Assembly: GCA_028687755.1 (NCBI GenBank)
Contig: JAQTZL010000005.1
Coordinates: 1-64,000 of the forward strand
Direction of reading: 5' to 3'
DNA from: Candidatus Nanopelagicales bacterium
GTDB lineage: Bacteria; Actinomycetota; Actinomycetes; S36-B12
DNA length: 64,000 nt
Below, one piece after another: positions 29,832 through 62,019 of this stretch (the first letter of the stretch is position 1; each line of letters begins with the position of its first letter). The translations under genes and the position numbers were made by a program. The notes below the pieces were generated by a model, which worked only from the letters and a program-made list of their open reading frames with translations, had not been told where the DNA came from and searched no databases.

Positions 29832-30111
29832 CGGCGAGCCTCCTGGGTCGGTGATCCTCGGAGCCGTGATGCTGCTCCGAGCTGGTCACCAACGAGGTGC
29901 ACGGTCGGCCCCACCGGCCTACGCCCAGGCCGCTCGCCACGCCCCCGCGTGCCGCGCCCAGAAGTTCGCTCGTCTGACCCCTTCGCGGTTCGCTCAAACG
30001 GGTTGTCACGCGTCTTGCAAGCGAGGCGCGCCGCCGTCCGAATGTGACCCCAAAAGTCACCTCGCCGCGGGCTGCGGAGCTCACCTTCGGGGTGAGGAAA
30101 GGCGGTGGCTG
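29832..30111. other. Divergent intergenic region, candidate oriT
   Basis: This 280-base space separates the methyltransferase and relaxase genes. It contains the small dyad GTGAC-cccaaaa-GTCAC near 30047 and several G+C-rich repeats. Origins of transfer often lie just upstream of MobF relaxase genes, but no nic site can be recognised. Confidence 0.3.
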
Positions 30112-36287: not shown

Positions 36288-37081
36288 AGGTTTTTCCTTT
36301 CGGTGAATGCCAGTTGGAGCCGGCCGGTCAGTGGGTTGCTGAGGACGGCGGCGTGCACGCCGAAGACGTCGAGCAGGAGTGTTGGGGTAAGCACGTGTTC
36401 GGGTGTGCCTGCGGCGATGACCGTTCCGTGATCTATGACCACGATTCGGTCGCAGTATGCGGCGGCCAAGTTGAGGTCGTGCAGGGTCACCAGTGTGGTG
36501 CGCCCGAGCCGACGGACGAGTGAGAGCAGTTCGAGCTGGTGTTGGACATCGAGGTGATTCGTTGGCTCATCGAGCACGAGGATGCTCGGCTCTTGGGCGA
36601 GTGCGCGGGCGAGTTGAACGCGCTGACGTTCACCGCCGGAGAGCGTGGCGACATCACGGTCCGCATAGGCTTCGATTCCGACAGCCATCATTGCGTTCTG
36701 CACGGCCGCACGATCGGCTGCGGTCTCTGCGCCGAGCAGACGGCCGTGCGGCACGCGCCCCGTAGCGACGCACTCTGCCACGGTCAGTTCGAGATCGCTG
36801 GGCGCGTCCTGCACCAGAGCTGCGGTGATCCGTGCGGCCTCGCGCGCCGGAATGACCCAGACATCGCGGCCACCCGCCGTGACGCGTCCCGATGCGGGGT
36901 GCAGCATTCGGTAGACGGTGCGCAGCAGCGTGGATTTTCCGCTGCCGTTCGGGCCGACCAGCCCGAGCACATCGCCGTCCGCGCTGAGCGATGCTTCGTG
37001 GAGGATGCGGCGCCCGGCGATATCGACGCTCACCGCCTCGACATGCAACGGCACCGTGGCGGTGCTGGTTTCTGAGTTCAT
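36284..37081 (-). CDS. ABC importer ATPase, FecE/FhuC type
   Basis: This 265-residue ATPase has Walker A GPNGSGKST, signature LSGGERQRV, Walker B ILVLDEPTNHLD and the switch His in LVTLHDLN. It belongs to the iron-siderophore, heme and cobalamin importer class. ATG 37081 overlaps the permease stop, and an in-frame extension to 37540 inside the permease is rejected. It energises the permease and lipoprotein encoded just upstream. Confidence 0.93.
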   Translation of the reverse strand: MNSETSTATVPLHVEAVSVDIAGRRILHEASLSADGDVLGLVGPNGSGKSTLLRTVYRMLHPASGRVTAGGRDVWVIPAREAARITAALVQDAPSDLELTVAECVATGRVPHGRLLGAETAADRAAVQNAMMAVGIEAYADRDVATLSGGERQRVQLARALAQEPSILVLDEPTNHLDVQHQLELLSLVRRLGRTTLVTLHDLNLAAAYCDRIVVIDHGTVIAAGTPEHVLTPTLLLDVFGVHAAVLSNPLTGRLQLAFTERKNL

Positions 37082-38139
37082 GTTTCCACCCGTCCCAATC
37101 TGCGCATCAGCCAGAGGAAGAAGGGTGCGCCAACCGCCGCCGTCAGCAGACCGACGGGCAACTCCGTCGGCGCCAGGAGGAGCCGTGCGGCGATGTCGAC
37201 AACGACGAGCAGCAACCCACCGGCGAGCGCCGAAGCCGGCAGCACCCAGCGATGGTCGGTGCCCACGATGAAGCGCATCGCGTGGGGAATGATCAGACCG
37301 ACGAAACCGATCGCACCGCTGACCGCGACAGCAACACCAACCAAGAGCGAGGTGATGACGAAGAACACGAGGCGCCCACGCCCCACGTCCACCCCCAGAC
37401 TCACCGCGGTCTCGTCGCCCGTCAGGAATGCGTTGAGAATCCGGGAAAGCAGCACCAATAGTACGGTCGCCACCACTAACACCCCTGCGGGGAGGCCGAG
37501 GTCGCCCCAGTCCGCTGCGGCGAGGCTCCCCGCAAGCCACGACAGCACCTCACTCACACCGCCGCCGGGGGTGCTCGCCCGGAGAACGAGGTAACTTGTG
37601 ACCGAACTCAGCAGGTAAGACATTGCAACTCCTGCCAGCACGAGCCGGTTCAGGGTTACCCGTCCCCGGCGCTGCGCCAGCAGGAAAACGAGGAGCGTCG
37701 TGAGGAGCGCGCCGAAGAACGCGGCAACCGGCACCGAGACTGTGGCCAGTGACCCGGTCGCGAGGGTAAGCATCGCAACAGCGGCGACCGACGCGCCGGA
37801 GGACACCCCGAACACGAACGGGTCGGCGAGCGGGTTGCGTACGACCGCTTGGAGGACCGCGCCCGCAACGGCCAGCGCAGCCCCGACGAGGAAGCCGAGT
37901 AGTGCGCGCGGCAGCCGGAACTCCCACACGATCTGCGCCTGGGTCGCGGTGAACGAAGTTCCGGTATCCCAGGGAATGAGGTGATCCGCGACCACACCGA
38001 CGACGACGCCGGGATGGATCGGAACCGACCCGACCGCGACAGACAGAACCACCGCAACGACCGCCGCGACGGCAAGCACGAGGATCGTGGTGCGCGGACG
38101 CCGACGACGTCCGCGCACCACGATGTCAGCGCGGGTCAC
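37078..38139 (-). CDS. ABC importer permease, FecCD family
   Basis: This 353-residue polytopic protein has about nine to ten membrane segments and typical FecCD blocks, such as RLPRALLGFLVGAALAVAGAVLQ and GFVGLIIPHAMRFIVG. It forms the membrane channel of a siderophore, heme or cobalamin-type importer. GTG 38139 overlaps the stop of the lipoprotein gene, so all four operon genes are translationally coupled. Confidence 0.93.
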   Translation of the reverse strand: MTRADIVVRGRRRRPRTTILVLAVAAVVAVVLSVAVGSVPIHPGVVVGVVADHLIPWDTGTSFTATQAQIVWEFRLPRALLGFLVGAALAVAGAVLQAVVRNPLADPFVFGVSSGASVAAVAMLTLATGSLATVSVPVAAFFGALLTTLLVFLLAQRRGRVTLNRLVLAGVAMSYLLSSVTSYLVLRASTPGGGVSEVLSWLAGSLAAADWGDLGLPAGVLVVATVLLVLLSRILNAFLTGDETAVSLGVDVGRGRLVFFVITSLLVGVAVAVSGAIGFVGLIIPHAMRFIVGTDHRWVLPASALAGGLLLVVVDIAARLLLAPTELPVGLLTAAVGAPFFLWLMRRLGRVET

Positions 38140-39149
38140 GAAGCGGGGACCGGCAGGTCCAGACCGTGCAGCCCGTTCGCGATCTGCGTGAGCCCTCGCA
38201 TCACAGAGATCGAGGCGTCCGTGTCGGCGACCGGGATCTCAACGAGCCGGTCCTCCTGAACGGCAGTGAGTTCGGGGAAGGTCTGCCGCAGGAAGGCGCT
38301 CAGGGTCTCGTAGTCCTGGCCCTCGAACGTCCCGACCAGGATCACGTCTGGCTGAGATGCGGCGAACTCTTCTTTGCTGACGTAGACCGCGTCCCGAGGA
38401 AAGACATTTGTGCCGCCGGCTGTGGCGATCGCATCGTCGTAGATGCCACCGGCCAGGACGATAAGCGGTCCCTCACCTCCGTTGTAAAACGCGACTGTGA
38501 CCTCTTCCTGCCCGGCCACCGCGTCGATCACCGCCTGACGCTGTTCCTCAAGGGAGCTGATGAGTTCCTCGGCGCGATCGCTCGCCCCGAAGATCGTCCC
38601 GAGGTCGCGGAGCGCGTCGAGCGGGGTATCCAGCGTCATATCCACAGCGCCGCCAGAATCGGCATCACAGACGTTCGCCCCGTAGACTTGCGCGCCACTC
38701 TGCTCCAGCTGTTCGACTGAGGCATATCCCATCGACGTATCGAAGGCATAGCCGACCAAGGATTGGCCGAGCACGAGATCCGCGTCATAGCTGAGCACGG
38801 TTTCCTTGTCGGGCCATCCCATCGCCGACCCGATCGACGGGATGTCCTCCACCTCCGGCGCCACGGACTCGGGATACGTCGCGTAGTCGCCTGCGCGAGC
38901 CACCACCCGGTCTCCCAGTCCCAGCGCGAGCATCATCTCGGTCGGCGCCTGCCACAGGCTCAGCACCTTTTCGGGAGCCGAGTCGAAGCTCAGTGTGCGA
39001 TCGCAGTTCTCGACCGAGATGGGGTAGCCCTGCGCTTCGGATGACGGTGTTCCGCTGGGCTGCGGGGCTTCAGGAGGTGTACACCCGGCGAGTACGAAGA
39101 TAGTAGCGGCGGCAACCACACCGGTGGCTGCCTTTCGGTTGAGGGTCAT
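38136..39149 (-). CDS. ABC importer substrate-binding lipoprotein, FecB/FhuD type
   Basis: This 337-residue protein has a lipobox (VLAGC, Cys23) and the two-lobed periplasmic-binding fold of the TroA/FecB class. The blocks EKVLSLWQAPTEMMLALGLGDRVVAR and SQPDVILVGTFEGQDYETL are typical. It captures the substrate, which is unknown: iron-siderophore, heme, cobalamin or possibly a copper-ligand complex. AAGGAA precedes the ATG. A BlaI/CopY-like dyad (39185 to 39201) lies 36 bases upstream. Confidence 0.92.
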   Translation of the reverse strand: MTLNRKAATGVVAAATIFVLAGCTPPEAPQPSGTPSSEAQGYPISVENCDRTLSFDSAPEKVLSLWQAPTEMMLALGLGDRVVARAGDYATYPESVAPEVEDIPSIGSAMGWPDKETVLSYDADLVLGQSLVGYAFDTSMGYASVEQLEQSGAQVYGANVCDADSGGAVDMTLDTPLDALRDLGTIFGASDRAEELISSLEEQRQAVIDAVAGQEEVTVAFYNGGEGPLIVLAGGIYDDAIATAGGTNVFPRDAVYVSKEEFAASQPDVILVGTFEGQDYETLSAFLRQTFPELTAVQEDRLVEIPVADTDASISVMRGLTQIANGLHGLDLPVPAS

Positions 39150-39184
39150 GAGTTCCTTGCTGCTGTGTCCACATACGAGATGAT

Positions 39185-39201
39185 CTCCACATGATGTAGA
39201 G
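39185..39201. promoter_or_regulatory. BlaI/CopY-type operator, site 0
   Basis: CTCCACATGATGTAGAG shares the right half and the ATAA extension with the site at 46566 and keeps the ACAnnnTGT core. It lies between the importer operon and the GlxA-type gene; the overlapping GATAAT on the plus strand is a possible -10 for the latter. Confidence 0.55.
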
Positions 39202-39273
39202 ATAATCCATCATTGCCTCAAGCCTCGCGCTGGGACAAGTGGCATAAATGCCGTGTTGCGATAGATTTACGAC

Positions 39274-40292
39274 ATGAGCCATGCCTCGATGCTTTCCAAG
39301 CAGAAGAAGCCGCACCGCATCGCAGTGCTCGTGATGGAGCATGCGCTTCCGGTGGAAGTCAGCATGCCGTTCCTAGTCTTCGGCGCACCCGCCCTCGGGT
39401 ATGAACTCATGCTGTGCGCCGAGACGCCAGGGCCAGTCGAAACCGATCACGGATGGTCGGTGACGGTGCAGCACGGGCTGGACGCTCTGGCGACCGCAGA
39501 CACAGTCATCGTCACGGCCTTTCGCGGCTTTCTCGACACCCCCTCGCGCGATGTCCTCGCGAAAATGAAGAGTGCGCACGACAGCGGAGCGCGTATCGCA
39601 TCGATCTGCACCGGCGCGTTTGTGCTCGCCGCCGCGGGACTGCTTGACGGACGCCGAGCCACGACCCACTGGCAGTTCGCGGCAGATCTCGCCCGGATGT
39701 ACCCTGCCGTTCATGTCGATCCGACCCCCTCTACATCGATGAAGGCAACATCATCACTTCGGCAGGCGTTGTCAGCGGGATTGACCTCTGCCTCCATCTG
39801 CTCCGCGATGACCGTGGAGCGGCCGTCGCCAATGAGATCGCCAGCACGATAGTCGCCTCACCCCACAGAGATGGCGGCCAGGCACAGTTCATCCGCCGCC
39901 CAGACGGCCCACCGCGATCAGCCGGCGGGGTTGGGGCGACCCAGGACTGGGCGCTCGCGCACCTCGATCAACCGCTCACCGTCAAGGACTTCGCCTCGCA
40001 CGCGGGGGTGCCCGTGCGCACATTCGAACGCCGCTTCGCCGCAGAGAACGGCGTTTCACCGATCAAATGGCTGAATGCCGCGCGCATCGACCATGCGCGC
40101 AAACTTCTAGAGACGACTGATGTGAGCATCGACGACGTCAGCCGGGTCTGCGGACTGGGGACACCGGCGAACTTCCGGCAGCACTTCCGCCGAGCAACAG
40201 GGACCTCGCCGAGCGAGTATCGGCACACCTTCGCGTCTGTCGGCTCGCCGAGGGAATGGTCGGGGACACATAGCCCAGCAATATCCGTTTAG
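39274..40292 (+). pseudogene. Frameshifted GlxA-type AraC-family regulator
   Basis: The first frame (39274 to about 39720) encodes a DJ-1/PfpI-like domain with the nucleophile elbow ASICTGAFVLAAAGLLDG. The sequence then continues in another frame as DPLYIDEGNIITSAG, followed by a linker and a double HTH ending near 40230 (VRTFERRFAAENGVSPIKWL, ANFRQHFRRATGTSPSEYR). A single-base loss near 39718, in HVDP-DPLYIDEG, would explain the break; a sequencing error is possible. No strong ribosome-binding site precedes the ATG. It is divergent from the importer operon and may once have regulated it. Confidence 0.85.
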
Positions 40293-40397
40293 CCTTCAAT
40301 GGAAAAGATGCCACCATGACCGCAGGAGACCGGGGAGAATGCGAGCGAACTGACGTCCAGTACGAAGTCCACCGAGACGCATGGACGAGACGGGTTT

Positions 40398-40415
40398 CTA
40401 CGACAGGATGTAGAG
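40398..40415. promoter_or_regulatory. BlaI/CopY-type operator, site 1
   Basis: CTACGACAGGATGTAGAG, an imperfect dyad 34 bases upstream of the blaI-like start. This fits autoregulation by the encoded repressor. Confidence 0.7.
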
Positions 40416-40449
40416 TTGAGGCTAGGCAGGCCGAACACGGAGGTGCCAG

Positions 40450-40833
40450 ATGGCGGGCGAGCGCACGCGCGAACGAGGTGAGCTTGAAGGCGAGGTCATG
40501 CGCATCCTTTGGGGGGCATCCGAACCGTTGAGCGCCCGTGACATCCAGGCCGTGTTCACTGGGCACGTTCCTGCGTATACGACGTTGATGACGGCCCTTG
40601 AACGGTTGCAGAAGAAGGGCGATGTCGTCCGTTCCGGTGACTCGCCCCGGAAGGTTCGCTTCCATGCGGCACGAAGCGGGGACGAGCATGTCGGTCGCTC
40701 GATGATGACCGCCTTGGACGGTGCTGGCGATCGGCAGGCTGCGCTATTGCGGTTCGCCGGAAACCTTGCCGAAGAGGATCTCGATCTGCTCCGTAGCGCG
40801 CTCACTGGCAAAACCTCGCGCAAGCGCAGGTGA
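40450..40833 (+). CDS. BlaI/MecI/CopY-family repressor
   Basis: This 127-residue winged-helix protein has the family pattern LEGEVMRILWGASEPLSARDIQ, then YTTLMTALERLQKKGDVVR. It is expected to bind CTAC-type dyads as a dimer and to be removed by proteolysis or a metal signal. The next gene encodes an M56 peptidase, the usual partner. It overlaps no gene but is five bases from the start of the peptidase. Its own operator-like site lies just upstream. Confidence 0.93.
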   Translation: MAGERTRERGELEGEVMRILWGASEPLSARDIQAVFTGHVPAYTTLMTALERLQKKGDVVRSGDSPRKVRFHAARSGDEHVGRSMMTALDGAGDRQAALLRFAGNLAEEDLDLLRSALTGKTSRKRR

Positions 40834-40837
40834 GACG

Positions 40838-41644
40838 TTGATCGCCACGGCCTCCCTCCTCGTCGCAGCAGTGCTAGTTCTGCTACTCGCGCCTCTCGTC
40901 CTGACTGCGGGACGGTGGCAGGTGCGGCATCCGCGTATCGCGCTGACACTCTGGTTCTGCGCCTTCTTCGCCGGGATCGGATTCGCCGTGGCCTCCGCCG
41001 CCACCGCGCTGATGTGCGCAGTCGGCGGGGTGAGTCCGGCGAGTTCGGGCGAAGCTTTGGTACTGACGCTCGCCGGCTGGTTGAGTCTCGGGGTGATCGC
41101 CGCGGTGATCGCCTTCGTCTCCGCGTCCGCGGAGCCGCTCGCCGACTCGTGGCGGGAAGCGGTCGGTCGCTTCGCGCCGGTCGCGGTCTCCCGCGAGGAC
41201 TCGGATGGTGCGACCCTGGTCTGGTTCAACTCCGACGAGCCGGTCGCATGTGCCGTTCCTTCCCATGAGCCTGAGATCTTTCTCTCCACGGCACTCAGAG
41301 ACCTTCTGAGCTCTCCCGAGCTTCGCGCTGTGATCGAGCATGAGCGTGCTCATCTACGTCAATATCACGGGTGGGCCGTGCGGATCGCCGAGGTCAACGC
41401 CCTCTGCCTCCCCCGGCAGTTCGCGGGCGGGCGCGCCCTAAAGAGGGCCACGCTGCTGCTCATTGAACTCATCGCGGACGATGCCGCCGCTCGCCGCGCC
41501 GGTGCCGTCCACCTCGCGAACGCGCTCGCGACTATGGGGCGCACGACAGCCGATCCTGGCCTGGAGCTTCGCGCCGATCGTCTCACCCTTCGCCGCTGGA
41601 AGAAACCGCGCAGCCAGCGACGCGCAACCCTCGTGCGCGCCTGA
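40838..41644 (+). CDS. M56-family metallopeptidase (BlaR1-like, no sensor domain)
   Basis: This 268-residue membrane protease has about three hydrophobic segments at the N-terminus and a zinc motif HERAH in VIEHERAHLRQYHGW. It would cleave or release the BlaI-like repressor. It lacks the C-terminal penicillin-binding sensor of BlaR1, so the trigger should be something else, plausibly copper or another metal given the neighbours. The likely start is TTG 40838; the frame extends upstream into the repressor gene but without support. Confidence 0.87.
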   Translation: MIATASLLVAAVLVLLLAPLVLTAGRWQVRHPRIALTLWFCAFFAGIGFAVASAATALMCAVGGVSPASSGEALVLTLAGWLSLGVIAAVIAFVSASAEPLADSWREAVGRFAPVAVSREDSDGATLVWFNSDEPVACAVPSHEPEIFLSTALRDLLSSPELRAVIEHERAHLRQYHGWAVRIAEVNALCLPRQFAGGRALKRATLLLIELIADDAAARRAGAVHLANALATMGRTTADPGLELRADRLTLRRWKKPRSQRRATLVRA

Positions 41645-41669
41645 CCTGGTCTCTGCCAGCCACCCGGAT

Positions 41670-41687
41670 CTACGACACGATGTAGAG
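41670..41687. promoter_or_regulatory. BlaI/CopY-type operator, site 2
   Basis: CTACGACACGATGTAGAG, differing from site 1 at one base, 34 bases upstream of copZ. The shared TTAAGG extension follows. Confidence 0.72.
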
Positions 41688-41721
41688 TTAAGGGAGTGGT
41701 CCGGCGTCAAGAGGAGTGGTC

Positions 41722-41949
41722 ATGGCCGAGTTCGAGTTCTGGGTGAACGGGATGACCTGCGAGCACTGCGAGCGTGCCGTCACTGCGGAGCTCTCCGCCC
41801 TTCCCGGCATCATCGATGTCCAGGTCGATGCCGCCTCCGGTCGTGTCAACCTGGGCCACGAAACGCCCGTTGATCTGAATGCGGTGGAGTCGGCAGTCGA
41901 GGACGCCGGCTACACGGTGCGGTCCTGGCCCACGACCACGAATGCCTGA
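41722..41949 (+). CDS. copZ: Copper chaperone, CopZ-like
   Basis: This 75-residue single heavy-metal-associated domain has the binding motif GMTCEHCERAV near the N-terminus. It would carry Cu(I) to the CopA ATPase encoded two genes downstream. ATG 41722 follows GAGGAG. Its stop overlaps the start of the CopD-CtaG gene by eight bases. The promoter region carries a BlaI/CopY-type dyad. Confidence 0.92.
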   Translation: MAEFEFWVNGMTCEHCERAVTAELSALPGIIDVQVDAASGRVNLGHETPVDLNAVESAVEDAGYTVRSWPTTTNA

Positions 41950-44011
41950 CGCCATCACCGCCAGCCCCGCTGCGGCACTCGTGCCCATCTCGGATCCTCG
42001 AATCCGCAGGCCCAGGAGCGCGGTGGCCGCGCTCCTGATCGGCGGGGCCGCCCTCGCCCTCGTCGTCTTCCCGGTCGTTGTGGCGGTCATGCTCGGGGAA
42101 GAACCGTACGACCGATTGCATGTCGGGTATCCCGGTGTCGATGTCGCCGTGGTCACCACGATCCTGCTTTCCGGTGCCCAGCTCGGAACCCTGGTCACCA
42201 GTGGGGCTCTGGTGCATGTGCTGTTTCTGCGAGACGCTCCAGCCCGTAAAGCGCGGTATCTCGAGGATGGTTTCGAGATCTCGGTGCTGCGCGTCGCCTC
42301 CGGTGTGTGGGCAACCTGCGCGGGTGCGTTGGTGGTCTTCGAAGCGCTCGACTCCAACGGCACTCCGTTGGAGCGACTGGCTACTCCCGGGGCGTTGCCG
42401 TATCTGTGGGAGGCGAGTTATGCGCCGAAGGCGTGGACGATCAGTTTCCTGGCGGCGTTGATCGTCTTCTTCGTCTCCTTCTTCGCAGAACGGTGGACGG
42501 GTTTGCTGATCCCGTTGTGGGCGACCGGAATCGCGGTGCTCGCACCTGTTGTCACCGGGCAAGTCCTCGTGGGACCGGACCACGACTTCGGCAGCGACGC
42601 CGCGATTTTCCAGACCGTCGCCGTGAACGCGTTCTTCGGAGCGGTCGTGGTTGCCGTCGTGCGCGTGGTCTCCGGGCGGCTTGTCTCGCCGCTGACCTTG
42701 CGGCGACTGTTCCGGATCGGAGCCGTCGCACTCCCCGTCGTCATCGTCTCCGATGTGGTCATCGCCGTGTTCAAGCTCGCCGGCGGCAGCATCACCGCCT
42801 CGCTGACCGGGTGGCTGATCCTCGCCGGCTTCGCCTGCCTGGTTGCGATCGCGGTGGCGTTCGTTACCGTCGCGACCCTCGCGCGACGGGGACGGCTGCG
42901 GGCGGGGCACATCACCGGACTCCTCTCCCTAGCGGCCGTGGCGGTGGCGGGGTGGACAGGTGTGGGCGTGGCGATGACACGGCAGCCGCCGCCGCAGTAT
43001 TTCGTGCCGACGAGCATCGAGCAGGTCTTCATGGGCTTCGAGGTCCCCGACGCTCCGACGCTGGATGTGTTGTTCGGGCAGTGGCGACCGAACCTGCTGT
43101 TCCTGGGTATCGCCGCAGCGGCGATCATCGTCTACTTGGTCGCCGTGCGCACGCTGCACAGGCGGGGTGACCGGTGGCCTCTCGGGCGGACAGCCGCGTG
43201 GATCGGCGGGTGGACCGTGGTGATCGTCGCGACGAGTTCCGGGTTCGGGAAGTACTCCGCCCCGGATTTCGGGGTGCACATGATCGTGCACATGTCGCTG
43301 AATATGCTCGCCCCCGGGCTTCTCGTCCTCGGCGGCGTAGTCACGTTGCTGCTGCGGGCATCCCGCTCGGACCGAACCAAGCCCGCGGGCCTGCACGACT
43401 GGATCACGTGGGTGCTGCACTGGCGGGTGCTGCAGTTCCTCTACAACCCGCTGATCGTGTTCGTGGTCTTCATCGGCTCCTACTACGGCCTCTATCTCAC
43501 CGGCATCTTCGGCGACTACATGCGGTTCCACTGGGCGCACCAGCTCATGAACCTGCACTTCCTCATCGTCGGCTACCTCTACTACAGCCTCATCATCGGC
43601 GTCGACCGGCCACCACGCCCCCTGCCGCACATCGGCAAACTCGGGTACGTGCTGGCGGCGATGCCGTTTCACGCGTTCTTCGGGGTGATCCTGATGACCA
43701 GCCCTAACATCATCGCCGAGACCTTCTACCGCTACCTCGACCTGCCCTGGGCCGACCTGCAGGCTCAGCAGTATCTCGGTGGCGGTGTCGCCTGGGCGGG
43801 TGGGGAGATCCCGCTGATGATCGTCATCGTCGCACTTGGCATCCAATGGAGCAGGCAAGACGCCAGGGACGCCCGCCGTAAGGACCGGCACTTCGACACC
43901 GGCCGCGATGACGAGTACGACGCCTACAACCAGATGCTCCAACGCCTCACCGATCGCGACGCGACCCGCCTCGGCCCCCGACCGACCGTCCGAGAGGACA
44001 CCCACTCATGA
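41942..44011 (+). CDS. CopD/CtaG fusion membrane protein
   Basis: This 689-residue polytopic protein joins an N-terminal CopD-like half and a C-terminal caa3-type CtaG half. The N half has about eight membrane segments and LVTSGALVHVLFL. The C half contains HMSLNMLAPGLLVLGG and FHWAHQLMNLHFLIVGYLYY, with metal-binding His residues. Such fusions are common in actinobacterial copper clusters and are thought to move copper across the membrane or supply cytochrome oxidase. It starts at ATG 41942 and its stop overlaps the copA start. Confidence 0.9.
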   Translation: MPDAITASPAAALVPISDPRIRRPRSAVAALLIGGAALALVVFPVVVAVMLGEEPYDRLHVGYPGVDVAVVTTILLSGAQLGTLVTSGALVHVLFLRDAPARKARYLEDGFEISVLRVASGVWATCAGALVVFEALDSNGTPLERLATPGALPYLWEASYAPKAWTISFLAALIVFFVSFFAERWTGLLIPLWATGIAVLAPVVTGQVLVGPDHDFGSDAAIFQTVAVNAFFGAVVVAVVRVVSGRLVSPLTLRRLFRIGAVALPVVIVSDVVIAVFKLAGGSITASLTGWLILAGFACLVAIAVAFVTVATLARRGRLRAGHITGLLSLAAVAVAGWTGVGVAMTRQPPPQYFVPTSIEQVFMGFEVPDAPTLDVLFGQWRPNLLFLGIAAAAIIVYLVAVRTLHRRGDRWPLGRTAAWIGGWTVVIVATSSGFGKYSAPDFGVHMIVHMSLNMLAPGLLVLGGVVTLLLRASRSDRTKPAGLHDWITWVLHWRVLQFLYNPLIVFVVFIGSYYGLYLTGIFGDYMRFHWAHQLMNLHFLIVGYLYYSLIIGVDRPPRPLPHIGKLGYVLAAMPFHAFFGVILMTSPNIIAETFYRYLDLPWADLQAQQYLGGGVAWAGGEIPLMIVIVALGIQWSRQDARDARRKDRHFDTGRDDEYDAYNQMLQRLTDRDATRLGPRPTVREDTHS

Positions 44012-46263
44012 CGACGACAGACACCACCACACCTGTGGTCCTCGCTCCGGTGGAGCTCGACATCTCCGGGATGACCTGCGCGGCCTGCGCGGGACGCGTC
44101 GAGCGCGCACTGGGCAAGCTCGACGGGGTGACAGCGAGCGTCAACTACGCCACCGAACGCGCCATCATCACCGGCCTTCCCGACAACGATGTCGAGACGG
44201 CCATCCGGCAGGTCGAGAACGCCGGATACGGCGCGCACCTGCGCGATGGCAGCGACGACGCCTGGTCGACGCGCGCCACTGAGGTACGGATCTCGTCGCT
44301 CCGGAGGCGCCTGGCTGTGTCCGCGCTGCTCACCGTCCCGCTCATGGACATCACGATCGTCCTGGCCCTCGTCCCCGGATGGAGGTTCCCCGGTTGGGAA
44401 TGGGTGTGTGTGCTGATGGCGCTGCCGATCGTGACATGGGCGGCGTGGCCGTTCCACCGGGCGACGCTCCGCAACCTCCGTCACGGTGCGGTCAGCATGG
44501 ACACGCTCGTCTCGCTCGGCATCGCCGCCTCATTCGGGTGGGCGATCCTGACCCTGCTGCTCGGGTTCGGCACCACGGAAGCCGCCGGCTACTGGCTCGG
44601 CTTCGGCGTCACCCCCGCAGGTGCGGACTCCATCTATCTCGACGTCGCCGCCGGGATGACGACCTTCCAGCTCGCGGGCCGGTACTTCGAAACCCGTTCA
44701 CGCCGTAAGGCCGGTGATGTCCTCGGCGCTCTGAACGCCCTCGCCGCCACCCACGTTCGGGTCGTCCGCGACGGCGTCGAGACGATCGAGCCGGCCACCG
44801 CACTCCGCGTCGGCGATACGTTCGTCGTCCTCCCGGGAGAGACGATCCCCGCTGATGGCACCGTCCACGCGGGGGCCGCTGCGGTGGATGCGAGCATGAT
44901 GACCGGGGAACCCGTGCCTGTGCCGGTCGGCCCCGGAGCCTTAGTGACCGGCGGGACCATCAGCACTGACGGGCGCCTGGAAGTGACCACGACTTCGGTC
45001 GGCGCCAACACCCAGCTCTCTCAGATGGCTGCGCTCACCGAGCAGGCCCAGGCGCGCAAAGCGCGCGTGCAGAACCTCGTCGACCGGATCGTCACTTGGT
45101 TCGTCCCCGCCGTCATCGCGCTTGCGATCATCGTCACCATCGCGTGGACTCTTACTGGCACTCCGTTTGCGCAGGCGTTCGGCATCGGGATCAGCGTCCT
45201 CATCATCGCCTGCCCCTGTGCACTCGGGCTCGCGACGCCGACTGCGCTCATGGTCGGGATCGGGCGGGCAGCGACCCTCGGCATCCTGATCAAAGGCCAC
45301 GACGCCCTCGAAGCCTCTGGCACCATCACCACCGTCGTTCTCGATAAGACCGGAACCCTCACCACCGGACGCATGACCGTCGAAACCGCGACCCCGTTTG
45401 GAATCGCCGATCATGAGCTGTGGCGTTTGGCCGCGTCCGTCGAGCAGGGTTCCGAGCATGCGATCGCCCACGCCATCCAGGACGCCGCCCGCGCCCACGT
45501 TACTGACCTTCACCCGTTGGAGGACTTCACCGCCCTCCCCGGTCTCGGTGCTACCGCCCGCATCACAGGGAGCACCCTCCTCGTCGGGAACGCCGACCTG
45601 CTCCGCGAGCACGGCGTCGACCTCACCCCGGCGGTCGCCGCTCTCTCGGATGCCCACGAGCACGGGCACACCGTCGCACTGGTCGCTCGCGACGGGCAGC
45701 TGATCGGGCTGCTTGCCCTTGCCGACACCATCAAGCCTGGAGCTGCGGACGCCATCACAGCGCTGCACGCCCAGAACCTCACCACCGTGCTCCTCACCGG
45801 CGACAGCCCTGCTGCCGGTGCTCGCATCGCGGCCGAACTCGGCATCGAACGCTTCCACGCCGGTGTCGCCCCTGCCCAGAAGGCTGACGTCGTCCGCGAA
45901 CTCCAAGCAGCCGGAGAGAAGGTCGCGATGGTCGGCGACGGCATCAACGACGCCATCGCCCTCGCCACCGCCGACCTCGGGCTCGCGCTCGTGTCCGGCA
46001 CCGACATCGCCCTCAAAGCCGCGGACATCATCCTCGTCCGCGACGACCTCCACGTCATACCCGATGCGATCGCGATCTCCCGCAAGACCCTCCGCACCAT
46101 CCGCACCAACCTCGGCTGGGCCTTCGGATACAACATCGCCGCCATCCCCATCGCTGCAGCCGGGTTCCTGAACCCTCTCATCGCCGCCGCCGCGATGTCC
46201 CTGTCCTCTGTGCTCGTCGTCTACAACAGCCTCCGCATCCAGCGCGTGCGCAGCACCCGGTAG
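44008..46263 (+). CDS. copA: Copper-transporting P1B-type ATPase
   Basis: This 751-residue Cu(I) exporter has an N-terminal metal-binding domain with GMTCAACAGRV. It has eight predicted membrane segments, the CPC motif IACPCALGLATP near 399, the phosphorylation motif DKTGTLT near 446 and the hinge MVGDGINDA near 642. Length and motif order are typical of P1B-1 ATPases. It is translationally coupled to the CopD/CtaG gene and fed by the CopZ chaperone. Confidence 0.96.
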   Translation: MTTTDTTTPVVLAPVELDISGMTCAACAGRVERALGKLDGVTASVNYATERAIITGLPDNDVETAIRQVENAGYGAHLRDGSDDAWSTRATEVRISSLRRRLAVSALLTVPLMDITIVLALVPGWRFPGWEWVCVLMALPIVTWAAWPFHRATLRNLRHGAVSMDTLVSLGIAASFGWAILTLLLGFGTTEAAGYWLGFGVTPAGADSIYLDVAAGMTTFQLAGRYFETRSRRKAGDVLGALNALAATHVRVVRDGVETIEPATALRVGDTFVVLPGETIPADGTVHAGAAAVDASMMTGEPVPVPVGPGALVTGGTISTDGRLEVTTTSVGANTQLSQMAALTEQAQARKARVQNLVDRIVTWFVPAVIALAIIVTIAWTLTGTPFAQAFGIGISVLIIACPCALGLATPTALMVGIGRAATLGILIKGHDALEASGTITTVVLDKTGTLTTGRMTVETATPFGIADHELWRLAASVEQGSEHAIAHAIQDAARAHVTDLHPLEDFTALPGLGATARITGSTLLVGNADLLREHGVDLTPAVAALSDAHEHGHTVALVARDGQLIGLLALADTIKPGAADAITALHAQNLTTVLLTGDSPAAGARIAAELGIERFHAGVAPAQKADVVRELQAAGEKVAMVGDGINDAIALATADLGLALVSGTDIALKAADIILVRDDLHVIPDAIAISRKTLRTIRTNLGWAFGYNIAAIPIAAAGFLNPLIAAAAMSLSSVLVVYNSLRIQRVRSTR

Positions 46264-46289
46264 GAGAACGGCAGGAGACAGATATCCCG

Positions 46290-46478
46290 ATGGAGTTCTT
46301 CCTACCGCTGTCCCTTGCTGCGATGCTCTACCTCCTCGTGCTCTGGATCGCCCTCACCGCACCACCACGGCCCCCACAGCTCTCAGATCCCACCCTGCGC
46401 GACGAATGGGACTCCGTCGCCTTTCGGGGGGTACGCAAAGGCGTCGAACGCCTGCGCGGGCGATTGCGCAGGCGGTAG
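46290..46478 (+). CDS. Small membrane protein after copA
   Basis: This 62-residue protein has one N-terminal membrane segment (about 5 to 25), a Pro-rich linker and a basic tail (GVRKGVERLRGRLRRR). An AGGAG lies 13 bases before the ATG. It resembles small membrane proteins seen after copper ATPase genes in some actinobacteria, but its function is unknown. It probably ends the copZ-copA operon. Confidence 0.6.
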   Translation: MEFFLPLSLAAMLYLLVLWIALTAPPRPPQLSDPTLRDEWDSVAFRGVRKGVERLRGRLRRR

Positions 46479-46533
46479 CGCCCTCGCGGGAGCCTGGACC
46501 GGCTCACCCGGGGAGGCGCTGTGCGCAGGCGTT

Positions 46534-46563
46534 TTGACCTCGCGATCGCCACCCCGCTAGTGT
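46534..46563 (+). promoter_or_regulatory. Promoter of the DUF5134-YcnI-CopC operon
   Basis: TTGACC, an 18-base spacer and TAGTGT (TANNNT type). The BlaI/CopY-type dyad begins three bases after the -10, placing it over the start of transcription. Confidence 0.6.
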
Positions 46564-46565
46564 AT

Positions 46566-46583
46566 CTACTACATGTTGTAGAG
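46566..46583. promoter_or_regulatory. BlaI/CopY-type operator, site 3
   Basis: CTACTACATGTTGTAGAG is the most symmetrical of the four copies and resembles the TACTACATATGTAGTA operator known for mycobacterial BlaI. It lies between promoter and start codon. Confidence 0.75.
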
Positions 46584-46597
46584 ATAAGGTGTGTGGC

Positions 46598-47188
46598 ATG
46601 CTGTCTGACCCGGTGCTCCAATGGACGCTGACACTCGCCTTCACCGCGACCGCCGCGTACGCCACACTGCGACTCTTCACAGACCGCAAGCCGTTGCTCA
46701 TCGTGGGCAACGCTTTGCACCTGGTGATGAGCCTCGTGATGATCGCCATGTGCTGGCCGTGGTGGACCGTACTGCCGTCACTCCCGCAGACGCTCTTCTT
46801 CTCGGCCGGCACGGCCTGGTTCGCTGCGGTGGTGCTCCTCCAGGCGCGGCGTCGCATCACGCGGGCTGCCGTTGGCGGACACAGCGTGTGGCATCAGGTG
46901 GCACACGCGGTCATGATGCTCGCGATGGTCTGGATGCTCCTCGCGATGCCCTCCGGAACCGACGGTGCGACGCATGACCATCACCATGGAGGGCTCGAGC
47001 CGTGGGCGGCCCTGACCGGGGTTGCCGTCACCGCGGCGCTGACGACGTCCGGGGTCGTCTTCCTCGTCGAGCTCGTCCGCTGCCTGCGCGGGCGTACCAC
47101 CTGGCTCGGACATACCGGGGATGTCGCCTCCGGGGCGCTGATGAGCTTCGGCATGGCAGCGATGTGCTGGCCGATGATCACCGGCTGA
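46598..47188 (+). CDS. DUF5134 membrane protein
   Basis: This 196-residue protein has five to six membrane segments and a His-rich loop (DGATHDHHHGG), a likely metal-binding site. It matches the DUF5134 family of actinobacterial copper loci. The start may be ATG 46598 or GTG 46589; AAGG precedes the ATG. It is the first gene after the operator and promoter pair and is followed by the YcnI gene after a small hairpin. Confidence 0.78.
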   Translation: MLSDPVLQWTLTLAFTATAAYATLRLFTDRKPLLIVGNALHLVMSLVMIAMCWPWWTVLPSLPQTLFFSAGTAWFAAVVLLQARRRITRAAVGGHSVWHQVAHAVMMLAMVWMLLAMPSGTDGATHDHHHGGLEPWAALTGVAVTAALTTSGVVFLVELVRCLRGRTTWLGHTGDVASGALMSFGMAAMCWPMITG

Positions 47189-47213
47189 ACACCCTTTGAC
47201 CACCACCATCAGT

Positions 47214-47232
47214 CCGCCGGCGCTGTCGGCGG
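47214..47232 (+). terminator. Hairpin between DUF5134 gene and ycnI-like gene
   Basis: CCGCCG and CGGCGG form a 6-bp stem with a seven-base loop. No T-run follows, so it may process or stabilise the transcript. Confidence 0.4.
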
Positions 47233-47254
47233 GTCAACAAGAAAGAGAGACACC

Positions 47255-47992
47255 ATGAGTACACGACGCAGCAAGAGGCCCCTTCTGATCGGAACCGGAG
47301 CCCTCGCGGCTACTGCCGCGCTGGTTCTCGGCGGTGCGGTCGCCGCGAACGCACACGTCAGCATTGCCGAAGGCCCGGTCGAGGCCGGATCGTACTCGAT
47401 CCTCACCTTCGGGGTGCCGCATGGATGCGATGGGTCTGCGACGACGGAGGTAGCGATCCAGATCCCCGAGGGCATCAACGCCGTCACCCCCACCCGCAAC
47501 AGTCTCTACTCCGTCGAAAAGGTGATGGAAGAGCTCGACACCCCCATCACTGACAGTCACGGCAACGAGGTCACCGAACGGGTCGCGCAGGTCGTCTACA
47601 CGGCCTCGACGCCCCTGCCCGATGGGCAGCGGGACGCGTTCGAGCTCTCGCTGCAGATCCCGGAGGACGCCGCAGATACCACTCTGTACTTCCCGACTGT
47701 GCAGACGTGCGAGCAGGGTGAGACCGCCTGGGTGCAGATCCCGGAGGAAGGGCAGGACGGCCACGAGCTTGATGCACCAGCCCCGAGCGTCGACGTCGTC
47801 GCAGCCAGCGACGCTGGATCGCACGGGCACGGCGACAGCACCGAGGACACCGTCGATGCGCACGACGAGGATTCGGCATCCGCGGCAGCTCCTGCAGATC
47901 AGACGCCGCTCGTGGTCACCTCGCTCGCCGTCGGGGCCCTCGGCCTGATCGTCGCGGTGATCGCCCTGCTGAGGGGACGCAAGAAGGCGTGA
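47255..47992 (+). CDS. YcnI-family copper-binding protein
   Basis: This 245-residue exported protein has a signal peptide (about 8 to 33) ending at ANAHV; the following His1 of the mature protein is the copper-binding residue of this family. The DUF1775 domain follows (about 34 to 180), then a His/Asp-rich linker (SHGHGDSTEDTVDAHDED) and a C-terminal membrane anchor. It would bind copper outside the cell and hand it to the CopC-CopD protein encoded next. Confidence 0.92.
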   Translation: MSTRRSKRPLLIGTGALAATAALVLGGAVAANAHVSIAEGPVEAGSYSILTFGVPHGCDGSATTEVAIQIPEGINAVTPTRNSLYSVEKVMEELDTPITDSHGNEVTERVAQVVYTASTPLPDGQRDAFELSLQIPEDAADTTLYFPTVQTCEQGETAWVQIPEEGQDGHELDAPAPSVDVVAASDAGSHGHGDSTEDTVDAHDEDSASAAAPADQTPLVVTSLAVGALGLIVAVIALLRGRKKA

Positions 47993-49710
47993 GCACTCTC
48001 ATCGCCGGGAAACGCGCACCGCGACGCGGCTCCGCCCTGGTCCTCCGTGCGCTGGCAGCCCTCCTGCTCGGCTGGTTGCTGGCGCTCACGGGAGCACAGG
48101 CGGCGTCCGCGCATGCCGAGCTGCTGTCCACGACACCGGAGAACGGTGCCGTGCTCGATGAGGCTCCCGCGGAGGCGGTGCTGACGTTCAACGAGCCCGT
48201 ACAGCTCATCGACGGCAGCATCCGCCTGTTTCCCGGCGATGAAGACCCCCTCACACTCGACGCGCACGTCAACAACACCAGCGTCATCGCCGTGCTCCCC
48301 GCCGACCTCGCCGACGGAGCCTATGCGCTGAGCTACCGCGTCGTCTCAGCAGACGGGCACCCCATCTCCGGCGCGATCACCTTCACCATCGGAGACGGCC
48401 AGGCGGACAGCGCGACGGCTCCCATCGTGGAAACCGCGACCCCGCAAGATACCCAGTTCGCCGTCAGCGCCCTGACAGCACTGCAATACCTCTCGCTCCT
48501 GGTCTTCGCCGGCCTGATCCTGTTCGAGCGAATGGTGCTGCGCAGCATCACGCCGTCCGATCGCCGGTCCAGAAACATCCTGCGACTGACCGGCATCGGA
48601 GCGGGGACCGCCTCGCTGCTGCTCATTCCCACGTCAGCGCTCAACGTGACCGGAAACCCACTGACCGCGGTGATCGATCCGACTGCATGGTGGTCGGGTG
48701 TCTTCTGGGCACCGGTCGCTGCGGCCATCATCGTATGCGCAGGACTCGTCGGAGCCACAGTGCTATCGACACGACAGCTGGGGAACAGGGGGATGCGCCT
48801 GCTCGCCGTGCTGCTGCCGCTCCTCGCATTGGCCGCGCCGGTGCTCGTCGGACATACCCAACTGATGGAACCACGGGCGCTGATCATCGCCGCCGACCTC
48901 GGACACCTTCTCGCCGGCTCCTTCTGGACCGGAGGAGTCCTCGGCCTACTCCTGTTCCTCGCGGCAACCCGCGTGACCAACGCCCAGGAGGCATGCACCT
49001 CACCTGCTCTCGCCGCGAAGGTCGTGCAGAGGTTCTCCGGCGTCGCGGTCTGGAGCGTCGTTATCCTCGCCGTCAGCGGAACTGTCATGGGCGTCATGAT
49101 CGTCGGAAGCGTCGACGCTCTGATCACGACCAGCTACGGGCTCACCCTCCTGCTCAAGATCGGGATCGTCATCCCCGTGATCGCGATCGCCGCCTACAAC
49201 AGGACCCGACTCCTCCCACGGATCGCGTCACGACCGACCGCACGCATGCAATGGCAGACCCTGACCCGAACCCTCAGCTACGAAGCCGCACTCCTCATCG
49301 CGGTCCTGCTCCTGACCGGCTTCCTCACCAACCTCAGCCCCACACACGACCACCACGACACACCAACCGAGATCACGGCAGCCACCGCTCAGACCGTCAC
49401 GATTGACGCGGACGCCCAAGGGCTATCGCTGAGGGGCGAACTCGAACCAGCACTGACCGGCGACAACAAGATCACCTTCACGCTCGAATACGACGGCAAA
49501 CCAGTCGCCCCCGACGAGGTGACCATTCGCACCACTCAACCTGAGCACGACCTCGGACCGTTCCAGTCCGTAGCCGAACTCGACCCTGAAACCGGTGAAT
49601 ACTCCGCCCACCTGGACATGCCCGTCGCAGGTGAATGGGAGATACAGGTACTCGCCCGCGTATCCACCTTCGCTCAGCCGATCGTCACGATACCTGTCAC
49701 CGTCAACTAA
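47989..49710 (+). CDS. CopC-CopD fusion protein
   Basis: This 573-residue protein has a signal peptide followed by a CopC domain (HAELLSTTPENGAVLDEAP; mature His first). Eight membrane segments of CopD follow (about 155 to 440), then an extracytoplasmic beta-rich tail (about 465 to 573). It is expected to bind and move copper at the cell surface. GTG 47989 overlaps the stop of the YcnI gene, so the two are translationally coupled. It is the last copper gene before the composition change. Confidence 0.93.
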   Translation: MSTLIAGKRAPRRGSALVLRALAALLLGWLLALTGAQAASAHAELLSTTPENGAVLDEAPAEAVLTFNEPVQLIDGSIRLFPGDEDPLTLDAHVNNTSVIAVLPADLADGAYALSYRVVSADGHPISGAITFTIGDGQADSATAPIVETATPQDTQFAVSALTALQYLSLLVFAGLILFERMVLRSITPSDRRSRNILRLTGIGAGTASLLLIPTSALNVTGNPLTAVIDPTAWWSGVFWAPVAAAIIVCAGLVGATVLSTRQLGNRGMRLLAVLLPLLALAAPVLVGHTQLMEPRALIIAADLGHLLAGSFWTGGVLGLLLFLAATRVTNAQEACTSPALAAKVVQRFSGVAVWSVVILAVSGTVMGVMIVGSVDALITTSYGLTLLLKIGIVIPVIAIAAYNRTRLLPRIASRPTARMQWQTLTRTLSYEAALLIAVLLLTGFLTNLSPTHDHHDTPTEITAATAQTVTIDADAQGLSLRGELEPALTGDNKITFTLEYDGKPVAPDEVTIRTTQPEHDLGPFQSVAELDPETGEYSAHLDMPVAGEWEIQVLARVSTFAQPIVTIPVTVN

Positions 49711-61584: not shown

Positions 61585-61652
61585 GCGCTTTCCCTGCTAG
61601 TTCAGTAGGAATTGCCGAGCACCGAAAGTCGTTGCGCTGCAAGGGATCTTGA

Positions 61653-61729: not shown

Positions 61730-61776
61730 GTGGCTGACGTTCCAGCCGCGATGAATCGGGGTTTCCCCCGAATCGT

Positions 61777-61853: not shown

Positions 61854-61866
61854 TTAAATGAAGCCG

Positions 61867-61939: not shown

Positions 61940-62019
61940 CTATATCTCCGTCGACCTTTGTGGATGCCGTTGGTGACCTGAGAACTATAGGGGATGGGTG
62001 GCCGGAGGGGTAATTGAGG

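Follow-up and report, generated by a model that had tools for sequence, protein, structure and literature searches.

Is a FecBCD-type importer that stands beside a set of copper genes controlled together with them, and if so, what would it import? The question is raised by a locus in the window, which is the whole 64,000-nucleotide stretch of DNA analyzed here. A sequence-only reading of this locus had noticed related dyads upstream of the importer operon, blaI, copZ, and a DUF5134 gene and had assigned the importer to a copper regulon. The features concerned are listed in Table 1.

Table 1. Putative operators and genes of the cluster, with positions in the window.
Feature	Position	Strand	Basis or remark
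Operator 1	39183..39203	.	divergent promoter of importer operon (-) and GlxA-type gene (+); matrix 23.9
Operator 2, before blaI	40398..40419	+	exact match
Operator 3, before copZ-ctaG-copA	41670..41691	+	exact match
Operator 4, before DUF5134-ycnI-copCD	46566..46587	+	exact match
Importer substrate-binding lipoprotein (SBP), class III, FecB/BtuF type	38136..39149	-	Peripla_BP_2 64.9 bits
FecCD-type permease	37078..38139	-	FecCD 313.5 bits
Importer ATPase	36284..37081	-	ABC_tran 103 bits; start placed by MNSETST motif
Isonitrile-hydratase-like DJ-1/PfpI enzyme, operon gene 4	35433..36287	-	best PDB match InhA 6ni5
GlxA/FtrA-type DJ-1 + AraC regulator gene	39274..40292	+	Pfam; frameshifted here
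BlaI-family repressor without cysteine	40450..40833	+	Penicillinase_R 51.0 bits; 0 Cys
BlaR1/M56-like membrane metallopeptidase	40838..41644	+	M48 25.2, M56 13.1 bits; HExxH (HERAH)
CopZ-type copper chaperone	41722..41949	+	HMA 58.5 bits
Caa3_CtaG oxidase-assembly protein	41942..44011, start approximate	+	Caa3_CtaG 253.4 bits
CopA-type P1B ATPase	44008..46263	+	TIGR01511 490.6 bits
DUF5134 membrane protein	46589..47188	+	Pfam 85.3 bits
YcnI (DUF1775)	47255..47992	+	Pfam 147 bits
YcnJ-like protein: CopC, CopD, YtkA domains	47989..49710	+	Pfam

The four dyads are indeed related. The motif CNACANNNTGTAGAGWTRA has only four exact matches in the 2,498,215-base genome (39187, 40401, 41673, and 46569), and these precede the importer, blaI, copZ, and the DUF5134 gene. 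With two mismatches allowed, the motif occurs at 14 places in the genome, versus six for a reversed control; it was derived from the four window sites themselves and is to that extent circular, the matrix tests being less so. The pattern given in the sequence-only reading, CTACNACANNNTGTAGAG, is matched exactly at 40398, 41670, and 46566 but with three mismatches at 39184, and since 1.5 chance matches are expected in the window at this level, the importer site was weak as first stated. A wider dyad guess, TNNACANNNTGTNGAG, missed sites 2 to 4 and was dropped.

A matrix built from only the three copper-gene sites of the window ranked 39181–39207 fourth in the window with a score of 16.0, and the best place outside these sites scored 9.2 in the same scan. 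With a matrix from seven copper-gene sites, importer sites excluded, the window importer site scored 23.9, a value reached by none of 3000 random 300-base stretches (maximum, 8.2), and 29 other FecB-type loci scored at most 7.5. The copper-gene-only matrix also picked the importer site in a second Leucobacter copy, in Kineosporia, and in the copy shared by Agrococcus, Microbacterium, and Frigoribacterium. For L065, the importer site scored 21.8 in a 234-base slice; an 87-base slice, with the site outside it, gave −9.6. At the sequence level, the case for an operator link between the importer and the copper genes is strong.

The importer site is a 9+3+9 dyad, ATCTCCACA-TGA-TGTAGAGAT, in which eight of nine arm positions are paired. 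It had been placed just upstream of the importer, and the SBP start is 34 to 54 bases away, but this description omitted the GlxA/FtrA-type AraC gene on the other side of what is a divergent promoter, starting about 70 bases from the dyad. The latter gene is split here into open pieces at 39274–39852 and 40008–40292 and is a single open frame in L063, L064, L065, and L066. The operator consensus is C(T/G)ACA-N3-TGTAGA, with a spacing of three, not two; some sites, CTCTACATCATGTAGAG among them, form perfect dyads, and some others have a poor left arm. A scan of 19 loci at a score threshold of 11 yielded 29 sites versus six with a reversed matrix, so single low-scoring sites are unreliable.

The repressor had been described as BlaI/CopY-type, of which the first half holds. 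A Penicillinase_R (PF03965) score of 51.0 bits, against a cut-off of 22.6, places it in the BlaI/MecI family. An identity as CopY is ruled out by the lack of cysteine, the spacing of three, the 20.7 bits scored against the CopY/CopR equivalog TIGR02698 (cut-off, 121.95), and the absence from the window of any match to the spacing-2 CopY box KACANNTGTA; the extended CopY consensus, RNYKACANNYGTMRNY, likewise had no match in the window. Nor does a CXC motif occur in the aligned part of any of 20 BlaI orthologues. What the repressor shares with CopY/CopR, as characterized in passages of PMC7253601, is a distant sequence relation and copper-gene targets. The mycobacterial BlaI sequence quoted in the sequence-only reading was not found in PMC12565901.

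An HExxH motif is present in all 20 BlaI-neighboring protease genes. The window protease scores above the cut-off for Peptidase_M48 (25.2 bits) and below it for M56 (13.1 bits; cut-off, 31), and no Pfam match to a sensor domain was obtained in this short gene. As in BlaI/MecI systems with BlaR1/M56, a Penicillinase_R-family repressor is combined with an adjacent HExxH membrane protease gene and a site before its own gene; unlike in those systems, copper and importer genes take the place of β-lactamase as the apparent targets, and the operator is TACA-N3-TGTA instead of TACA-N2-TGTA.

We looked for the dyad before FecB-type genes in related blaI–copper clusters and found that it recurs, for example in Leucobacter, Kineosporia, and G928. 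Of 20 BlaI loci, 16 have copper genes, and 16 have one operator or more. In blaI-M56 loci of Microbacteriaceae, the operator lies near Caa3_CtaG, CopZ, DUF5134-YcnI-CopCD, and CopC-PCuAC-DyP genes (preceding the last in Leucobacter L064 and in L119) and also before other FecBCD importers. Together with the operator before the importer in diverged relatives, these other importers in BlaI–copper clusters uphold the assignment of the importer to a copper regulon. In Kineosporia, the importer has BlaI-M56-CopA and a CtaG/CopD protein encoded no more than 10 kb away. The Kineosporia cluster also contains a four-gene set with a copper-chaperone-like domain, and G993 carries a KAS III/carrier-thioesterase/AMP-ligase set with the operator; both sets could be ligand-making genes. 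Judged from sequence, a cysteine-free blaI gene and an M56-type protease gene are accompanied by a shared putative operator, this arrangement recurs in several lineages, and the operator sits before blaI, copper-trafficking genes, and FecBCD-type importers.

The operator is absent from all five Paenibacillus importer copies. An uncontrolled neighborhood comparison found, no more than 10 kb from some of these importers, CsoR and a CopD-like gene scoring 29.0 bits against a cut-off of 32.1 (L071), NosL and a NosD-like gene (L072), and SCO1 together with a cytochrome bd-like gene (L070); for L074, no copper gene was recognized in the 10 kb upstream or the approximately 8 kb downstream.

The importer comprises a class III SBP, an FecCD permease, and an ABC ATPase in one operon, all with Pfam scores above the cut-off; the ATPase start at 37081 overlaps the permease stop. 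The structures nearest to the predicted SBP model are those of proteins that bind siderophores, heme, or B12, with Z scores of up to 28.6. A match to the F420-0 ABC transporter (TIGR03868/3869/3873) was rejected, with scores of 97.2, 284.2, and 284.8 bits against cut-offs of 392.4, 437.35, and 372.4.

The fourth gene of the operon, previously called PfpI-like, does encode a DJ-1/PfpI enzyme, but its closest match is isonitrile hydratase. Its best PDB match is InhA (6ni5; E = 5.1e-46), and residues D75, C161, and T162, invariant in all six orthologues, align with Asp17, Cys101, and Thr102 of ICH, the last of which we take to be one of its active-site residues. Asp17 and Cys101 are catalytic according to parts of PMC10971408. 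The product of gene 4 is a putative isonitrile hydratase relative in which the active-site residues are kept. Unlike InhA/ICH, it has an N-terminal extension of about 60 residues and is encoded in an importer operon with a copper-gene operator. A structure model of it (mean pLDDT, 56.7) was set aside.

Among 12 loci retrieved by SBP similarity, eight (L065, L066, L068–L071, L073, and L074) have the complete order SBP–FecCD–ATPase–hydratase, and G928 has all four genes plus the operator; the isonitrile-hydratase-like fourth gene is retained across two phyla. It accompanies one importer type, no orthologue being found beside other operator-bearing importers (the second set of L115, L128, and L129). 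In G928 and G993, a gene adjoining a second operator-bearing FecBCD importer encodes a fusion of a DJ-1 domain with an HMA copper-chaperone-type domain, the latter scoring 28.9 and 28.8 bits against a cut-off of 24.8; one such importer is located after the fusion gene. The DJ-1 domain of G928, the one of the two that was compared, is closest to isonitrile hydratase (E = 7.3e-25). The best NCBIfam match of the fusion is FtrA, far below the cut-off, and the DJ-1 family includes regulators too. A comparable DJ-1 gene that lacks HMA occurs in Leucobacter L165, where it diverges from an operator-bearing importer, with the dyad between the two.

On balance, we lean toward a BlaI/M56 copper-acquisition regulon in which the importer takes up a copper–isonitrile complex and the hydratase frees the metal; low-copper induction and the importer cargo are what we infer from the genes present. 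The pairing of an importer with an isonitrile-degrading-like enzyme suggests that carrier-bound copper is taken in. In staphylococci, BlaR1 inactivates BlaI. By analogy, BlaI would bind the operator and repress until copper shortage or failure of a copper oxidase led the M56 protease to inactivate it, which would turn on copper acquisition and delivery to cytochrome oxidase through YcnI/CopCD, CopZ, CtaG, and the P-type ATPase and, elsewhere, CopC-PCuAC. The cargo of the window importer would be copper complexed with an isonitrile compound that neighboring bacteria or fungi produce. Gene 4 would convert the isonitrile to a formamide unable to keep Cu(I) bound, freeing copper inside the cell, and the divergent GlxA-type regulator, broken in this copy, would detect either the ligand or its product.

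The earlier emphasis on copper stress is not supported by the putative targets, which look less like detoxification genes than like genes for copper acquisition and oxidase assembly: parts of PMC9145763 and PMC13344008 treat CtaG, CopC-PCuAC, and YcnI/YcnJ-type genes as serving copper import and oxidase assembly. Passages of PMC12140626 and PMC10971408 were also counted toward the copper-acquisition explanation. A CtaG-domain protein and a CopC-PCuAC operon likewise occur in the copper-deprivation stimulon of Corynebacterium glutamicum (Morosov 2018, as reported in part of PMC9145763); unlike there, a repressor gene and an operator can be proposed here, and FecBCD importers are included. The ycnKJI operon of Bacillus subtilis (PMC13344008, in part) shares YcnI and a YcnJ with CopC, CopD, and YtkA domains but has YcnK as its repressor.

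CopZ and the CopA-type ATPase, both regulon members here, are often copper-efflux genes, and induction by copper excess therefore retains some plausibility. High copper would release BlaI, CopZ and CopA would export the metal, and the importer and hydratase would bring in and destroy toxic copper–isonitrile antibiotics of competitors. This agrees with the usual view, in the parts of PMC10971408 and PMC10792529 that treat them, of isonitrile hydratases as defense enzymes and isonitriles as antimicrobials. Nevertheless, we consider it unlikely, given the import and assembly roles discussed for YcnI/CopCD with YtkA, CtaG, and CopC-PCuAC in parts of PMC13344008 and PMC9145763, the oddity of importing a toxin for destruction, and the operator in front of an Azt/Znu-like metal ABC transporter (L136:15810–18195; all NCBIfam scores below cut-off).

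As to cargo, the sequence-only reading had offered a copper–ligand complex or iron. The former is favored by the hydratase-like gene 4, by the role of diisonitriles as copper carriers (PMC9600254, in part), and by the HMA-fused relative beside an operator-bearing importer. Iron (as siderophore or heme) or cobalamin, tied to copper through oxidase heme iron or copper-disturbed iron, would suit the modeled fold of the SBP and the PepSY_TM, 2Fe-2S domain, and DyP/encapsulin genes of some clusters; retention of the fourth gene in two phyla, the HMA fusion, and, weakly, the operator shared with copper genes argue against such a cargo, which we think rather improbable.

Somewhat less probable still is that the signal for BlaI/M56 is a failure of respiration or envelope stress (β-lactam) instead of copper, with targets serving cytochrome oxidase. 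The lack of a metal-binding CXC in the regulator speaks for this, but of 27 distinct sites in 12 genomes, 24 fall, by our own reading, within copper, importer, or blaI clusters, and an unsystematic look at the loci read recognized no respiratory-chain gene directly behind the operator. It seems very improbable that the motif mainly reflects promoters read by a common sigma factor, with TGTAGAG overlapping a −10 box: by eye, its TAGAGT/TAGAGA part could act as a −10-like element, and the left arm is poor at some sites, but the collected (matrix-chosen) sites retain the left half C.AC and the N3 spacing, CTCTACATCATGTAGAG-like sites are perfect dyads, and the site is rare across the genome.

The proposed copper-acquisition cluster appears to be mobile. 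Window positions 37280–49152 are 97.5% identical to Leucobacter. The right flank (61651–64000) has a 69% match in G064, a genome of the same genus, which counters a misbinned contig as the whole story and makes an island adjoining tRNA genes more likely; an assembly chimera may account for the junction. By sequence comparison, the cluster is common to several genera and is apparently carried on an island. SBP matches were obtained in two of 85 family genomes (its own and a weak one, E = 6.8e-4) and in 13 of 85 order genomes (best E among the 12 others, 3.0e-9); among the matches listed for 396 phylum genomes, none except its own exceeded 37% identity. A strict SBP profile found one of 394 class genomes and three of 51 genomes in the genus group of P. 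sinopodophylli. A tblastn search with the SBP gave 1239 plasmid records, with 27 to 35% identity among the matches listed, and in a DNA search of plasmid and phage collections with the 34 to 50 kb region, the matches listed were all short pieces. The RUSTI islands of cheese actinobacteria (PMC5526665, in part) are similar in being mobile importer islands with an AraC-type regulator. They were rejected as an identity for the operon on gene content: the RUSTI core has two SBPs, two permeases, one ATPase, and a siderophore reductase, versus one SBP, one permease, one ATPase, and no reductase here. The word "copper" is absent from the main text of that paper. The PvcA isonitrile synthase family had no match in 10 genomes, and control genomes were equally silent.

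Among the papers listed in our literature search, we recognized none linking BlaI, copper import, and isonitrile uptake. To our knowledge, bacterial copper uptake and importers of copper-loaded isonitrile carriers are poorly known. If the proposal is true, an importer, a copper-release enzyme, and a repressor with its operator would be combined in one movable and testable cluster, and the operator motif could be used to scan for further copper-carrier importers. More tentatively, and with some doubt, BlaI/M56 might be an undescribed master switch of actinobacterial copper acquisition that recruits FecBCD copper-carrier importers, at least two types of which would work with isonitrile-hydratase-like enzymes (one HMA-fused) that free copper by destroying the ligand. 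In many Microbacteriaceae, BlaI-type regulators have copper genes as neighbors, for which the proposal would also account. Several of the organisms that carry the cluster are presumably cheese isolates, in part judging by their names, and cheese-rind actinobacteria would therefore be predicted to exploit or neutralize the isonitriles of their neighbors.

The four dyads that a sequence-only reading had placed before the importer operon, blaI, copZ, and the DUF5134 gene are all present in the window. Three are exact to the pattern used in that reading, and the fourth (39184) has three mismatches, a tolerance at which 1.5 chance matches are expected in the window. Alignment of the four sites gave a better form, CNACANNNTGTAGAGWTRA, which is exact at 39187, 40401, 41673, and 46569, with no further exact match elsewhere in the 2.5-Mb genome. 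To reduce circularity, matrices were made without the importer site. With a matrix from the window's three copper-gene sites, positions 39181–39207 rank fourth in the window (score 16.0), and the top score away from the four sites is 9.2. With a seven-site matrix of copper-gene sites only (the window and L065, a related locus, giving three each and Kineosporia one), the importer site scores 23.9, whereas 3000 random 300-base stretches peak at 8.2. At 29 other FecB-type loci, the highest score with this matrix was 7.5. At the level of sequence, the link between the importer and the copper regulon is real. From the SBP start the dyad is 34 to 54 bases upstream and from the GlxA-type start about 70, and it could therefore serve both genes.

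Features of the importer operon and of the surrounding island
Feature	Position	Orientation	Remark
IS256-type transposase	24704–25960		name by reading of translation
Relaxase-like gene	29851–33660		name by reading of translation
DJ-1/PfpI-family enzyme	35433–36287	leftward	
Importer ATPase	36284–37081	leftward	
FecCD permease	37078–38139	leftward	
SBP lipoprotein	38136–39149	leftward	
GlxA/FtrA-type gene, DJ-1 and AraC domains	39274–40292	divergent to importer operon	frameshifted in window copy
Integrase-like gene	59083–60507		name by reading of translation
tRNA genes (tRNA-Phe/Asp/Glu)	61653–61939		

The GlxA-type gene is followed by blaI, an M56-like HExxH protease, copZ, Caa3_CtaG, a CopA-type ATPase, DUF5134, ycnI, and a CopC–CopD–YtkA gene. 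It is unbroken in L063, L064, L065, and L066, with intact copies in Leucobacter, Microbacterium, and Agrococcus. The cluster of importer and copper genes sits on an island, and positions 37280–49152 are 97.5% identical to Leucobacter. A DNA cytosine methyltransferase-like gene also occurs among the mobile-island features (24704–61939).

One scan of the genome collection with the SBP gave 12 loci. Leucobacter sp. 7(1) has two copies (99% and 88% identity), while Microbacterium esteraromaticum, Agrococcus casei, Microbacterium gubbeenense, and Frigoribacterium sp. JB110 have copies of equal identity (76%); Kineosporia babensis has one (69%), and Paenibacillus accounts for five (60–69%). Eight of the 12 show the full order SBP–FecCD–ATPase–hydratase. 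The hydratase match is split in two pieces in Paenibacillus pasadenensis (L072) and ends in M. gubbeenense (L067) after residue 63, where the sequence diverges from L065; for L063 and L064, the sequence examined ends within the permease gene. The distribution is patchy: among 394 class genomes, a strict profile matches one, that of the window itself, and in the genus group of P. sinopodophylli it matches 3 of 51. Searches for the SBP elsewhere in the host family and order gave weak matches only.

Ahead of SBP/GlxA, the operator is conserved in L063, L064, and L065 to L068; in Kineosporia it stands before the SBP with one core change. Importer-site scores are 15.7 (L064), 21.8 (L065), and 16.1 (L069, Kineosporia), against a random maximum of 8.2 over 3000 stretches. 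No operator was found in the five Paenibacillus upstream regions, with scores (−7.1 to 1.7) inside background. At the second Leucobacter copy, the operator also precedes a CopC–PCuAC–DyP operon (L064:2102). In Kineosporia, a perfect CTCTACATCATGTAGAG lies ahead of blaI (Penicillinase_R, 81.7 bits), M56, and copA, beside which a CopD–Caa3_CtaG protein is encoded, all less than 10 kb from the importer. Between these genes and the importer sits a four-gene set (L069:3809–9168) encoding a cysteine-synthase-like protein with rhodanese, a diaminopimelate-decarboxylase-like protein, an uncharacterized protein whose C-terminal domain is CopZ-like, and a cysteine-desulfurase-like protein; this set could make a copper ligand.

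Of 398 genomes of Microbacteriaceae, the family of Agrococcus casei, 99 have BlaI at E up to 1e-15. From 30 listed loci 20 were taken, leaving out G817 (already covered), four whose scores lay close to that of G1211, and, G1053 apart, the five with the lowest scores. Copper genes (tblastn with the cluster proteins) were present in 16 of the 20, and at least one operator scoring 11 or more likewise in 16. Neither was found in L121, L122, and L126 at this score; L116 has an operator without a copper gene in reach, and L134 has copper genes and no operator. The BlaI–M56 pairs of L116, L121, L122, and L126 stand without copper genes in reach. Across 19 loci (close relative L115 omitted), with palindromic sites counted on both strands, there were 29 sites at score 11 versus 6 with the reversed matrix, and 13 versus 1 at score 18; the 29 FecB control loci had zero. 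The CopY label of the sequence-only reading was wrong: the spacing-2 box has zero matches in the window, and CXC is absent from all 20 BlaI proteins over the aligned parts (one has a Cys). Spacing 2 does not occur among 45 collected sites either, which carries little weight beyond the window because the matrix itself presupposes spacing 3. HExxH is present in 20/20 M56 proteins over the aligned parts.

A CTACANNNTGTAGAG scan of 12 whole genomes, selected for having such clusters, gave 33 rows versus 7 for the reversed control, with nine genomes positive and none found in G890, G1138, and G1071. The rows collapse to 27 distinct sites, 24 of which we assign to clusters of copper, importer, or blaI genes; of the other three, one is next to the 3′ end of blaI–M56 (G1175), one falls within an unrelated gene (G896:C1:1584105), and one (G815:C66) was left unclassified.

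Three of the 20 BlaI loci contain FecB-type operons (tblastn). L115 (genome G928) has two operator-bearing importers, the hydratase type and a PepSY–FecCD–SBP–ATPase set, whose site is less telling because it also precedes a divergent DUF5134 gene. In L128 the operator starts 44 bases ahead of one SBP, a second SBP being without one, and in L129 it lies 124 bases ahead of an SBP–FecCD–ATPase set. Another site (L115:15623, score 31.2) falls between the 3′ ends of ATPase and GlxA-type genes, with no obvious target; the equivalent place in L064 is ahead of CopC–PCuAC–DyP. A further SBP–FecCD set, with a His-rich SBP and, in G928, an ATPase, has a perfect dyad directly ahead of the SBP in G928 (L135:9895) and G993 (L146), and a similar SBP and FecCD gene in Leucobacter (G815:C65, L165) also has the dyad. 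The link between importers and the copper regulon is wider than first claimed.

The fourth gene of the window's operon, described earlier as PfpI-like, encodes an enzyme whose nearest solved structures are isonitrile hydratases (InhA, 6ni5, E 5.1e-46). Asp17 and Cys101 are reported as the catalytic pair of isonitrile hydratase (PMC10971408). In the 6ni5 alignment, D75, C161, and T162 match Asp17, Cys101, and Thr102, and all three are invariant in six of six aligned orthologues. By homology and kept catalytic positions, the enzyme is isonitrile-hydratase-like, an isonitrile being its candidate substrate. Directly upstream of the importer with the His-rich SBP, G928 (L135:8693–9910) and G993 (L146:1508–2719) encode a protein that joins an HMA domain (28.9 bits in G928 and 28.8 in G993, against a cut-off of 24.8) to a DJ-1 domain. 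Among solved structures, isonitrile hydratase is again the nearest to this DJ-1 domain (E 7.3e-25, G928 protein), and the Asp and Cys-Thr positions are kept. The nearest NCBIfam model is the regulator FtrA, well under cut-off, and Pfam finds no DNA-binding domain. The fusion joins predicted copper-binding-type and hydratase-type domains in a single polypeptide. L165 has a similar DJ-1 gene that lacks HMA; it and the SBP gene run divergently from either side of the dyad.

Between two operator-bearing importers, G928 has genes for a DyP peroxidase and a family 1 encapsulin (L135:4581–6523). In G993, an operator (site 3700, score 25.9) stands immediately before KAS III, carrier-thioesterase, and AMP-ligase genes (L136:191–3698), making ligand biosynthesis within the regulon possible. 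Farther along (L136:10838–18195), a surface-like protein of 1151 residues and a metal ABC transporter of Azt/Znu-like type, the latter under NCBIfam cut-offs, each have an operator ahead of them.

The gene content of the regulon points to copper acquisition. In Corynebacterium glutamicum, a CtaG–CopD fusion (CtiP) and the CopC–PCuAC operon are tied to copper import and oxidase assembly in PMC9145763, which bases the link on a cited copper-deprivation study. Bacillus YcnJ, which shares its CopC, CopD, and YtkA domains with the last protein of the window's cluster, is described as aiding copper-dependent respiration when copper is limited, YcnI swapping copper with YcnJ (PMC13344008). CopA and CopZ would also suit copper efflux, and the regulon may thus respond to low or to excess copper. 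Copper acquisition fits the CtaG, CopC–PCuAC, and YcnI/YcnJ-type genes better than the copper stress first proposed.

Diisonitriles are reported to bind Cu(I) and to bring about copper uptake by Streptomyces and mycobacteria (PMC9600254, PMC12140626), and a fungal isocyanide cluster is reported to react to copper depletion (PMC5974471). On this basis, a copper-gene operator ahead of an importer joined to an isonitrile-hydratase-like enzyme suggests uptake of copper-isonitrile, from which hydration by the fourth-gene enzyme would free copper. Of the cargoes first suggested, a copper-ligand complex or iron, the former is favored by the hydratase-like gene, with iron the less likely. The steps that lead from the operator to a cargo are inferred, and no cargo more specific than isonitrile-bound copper can be proposed from these data.
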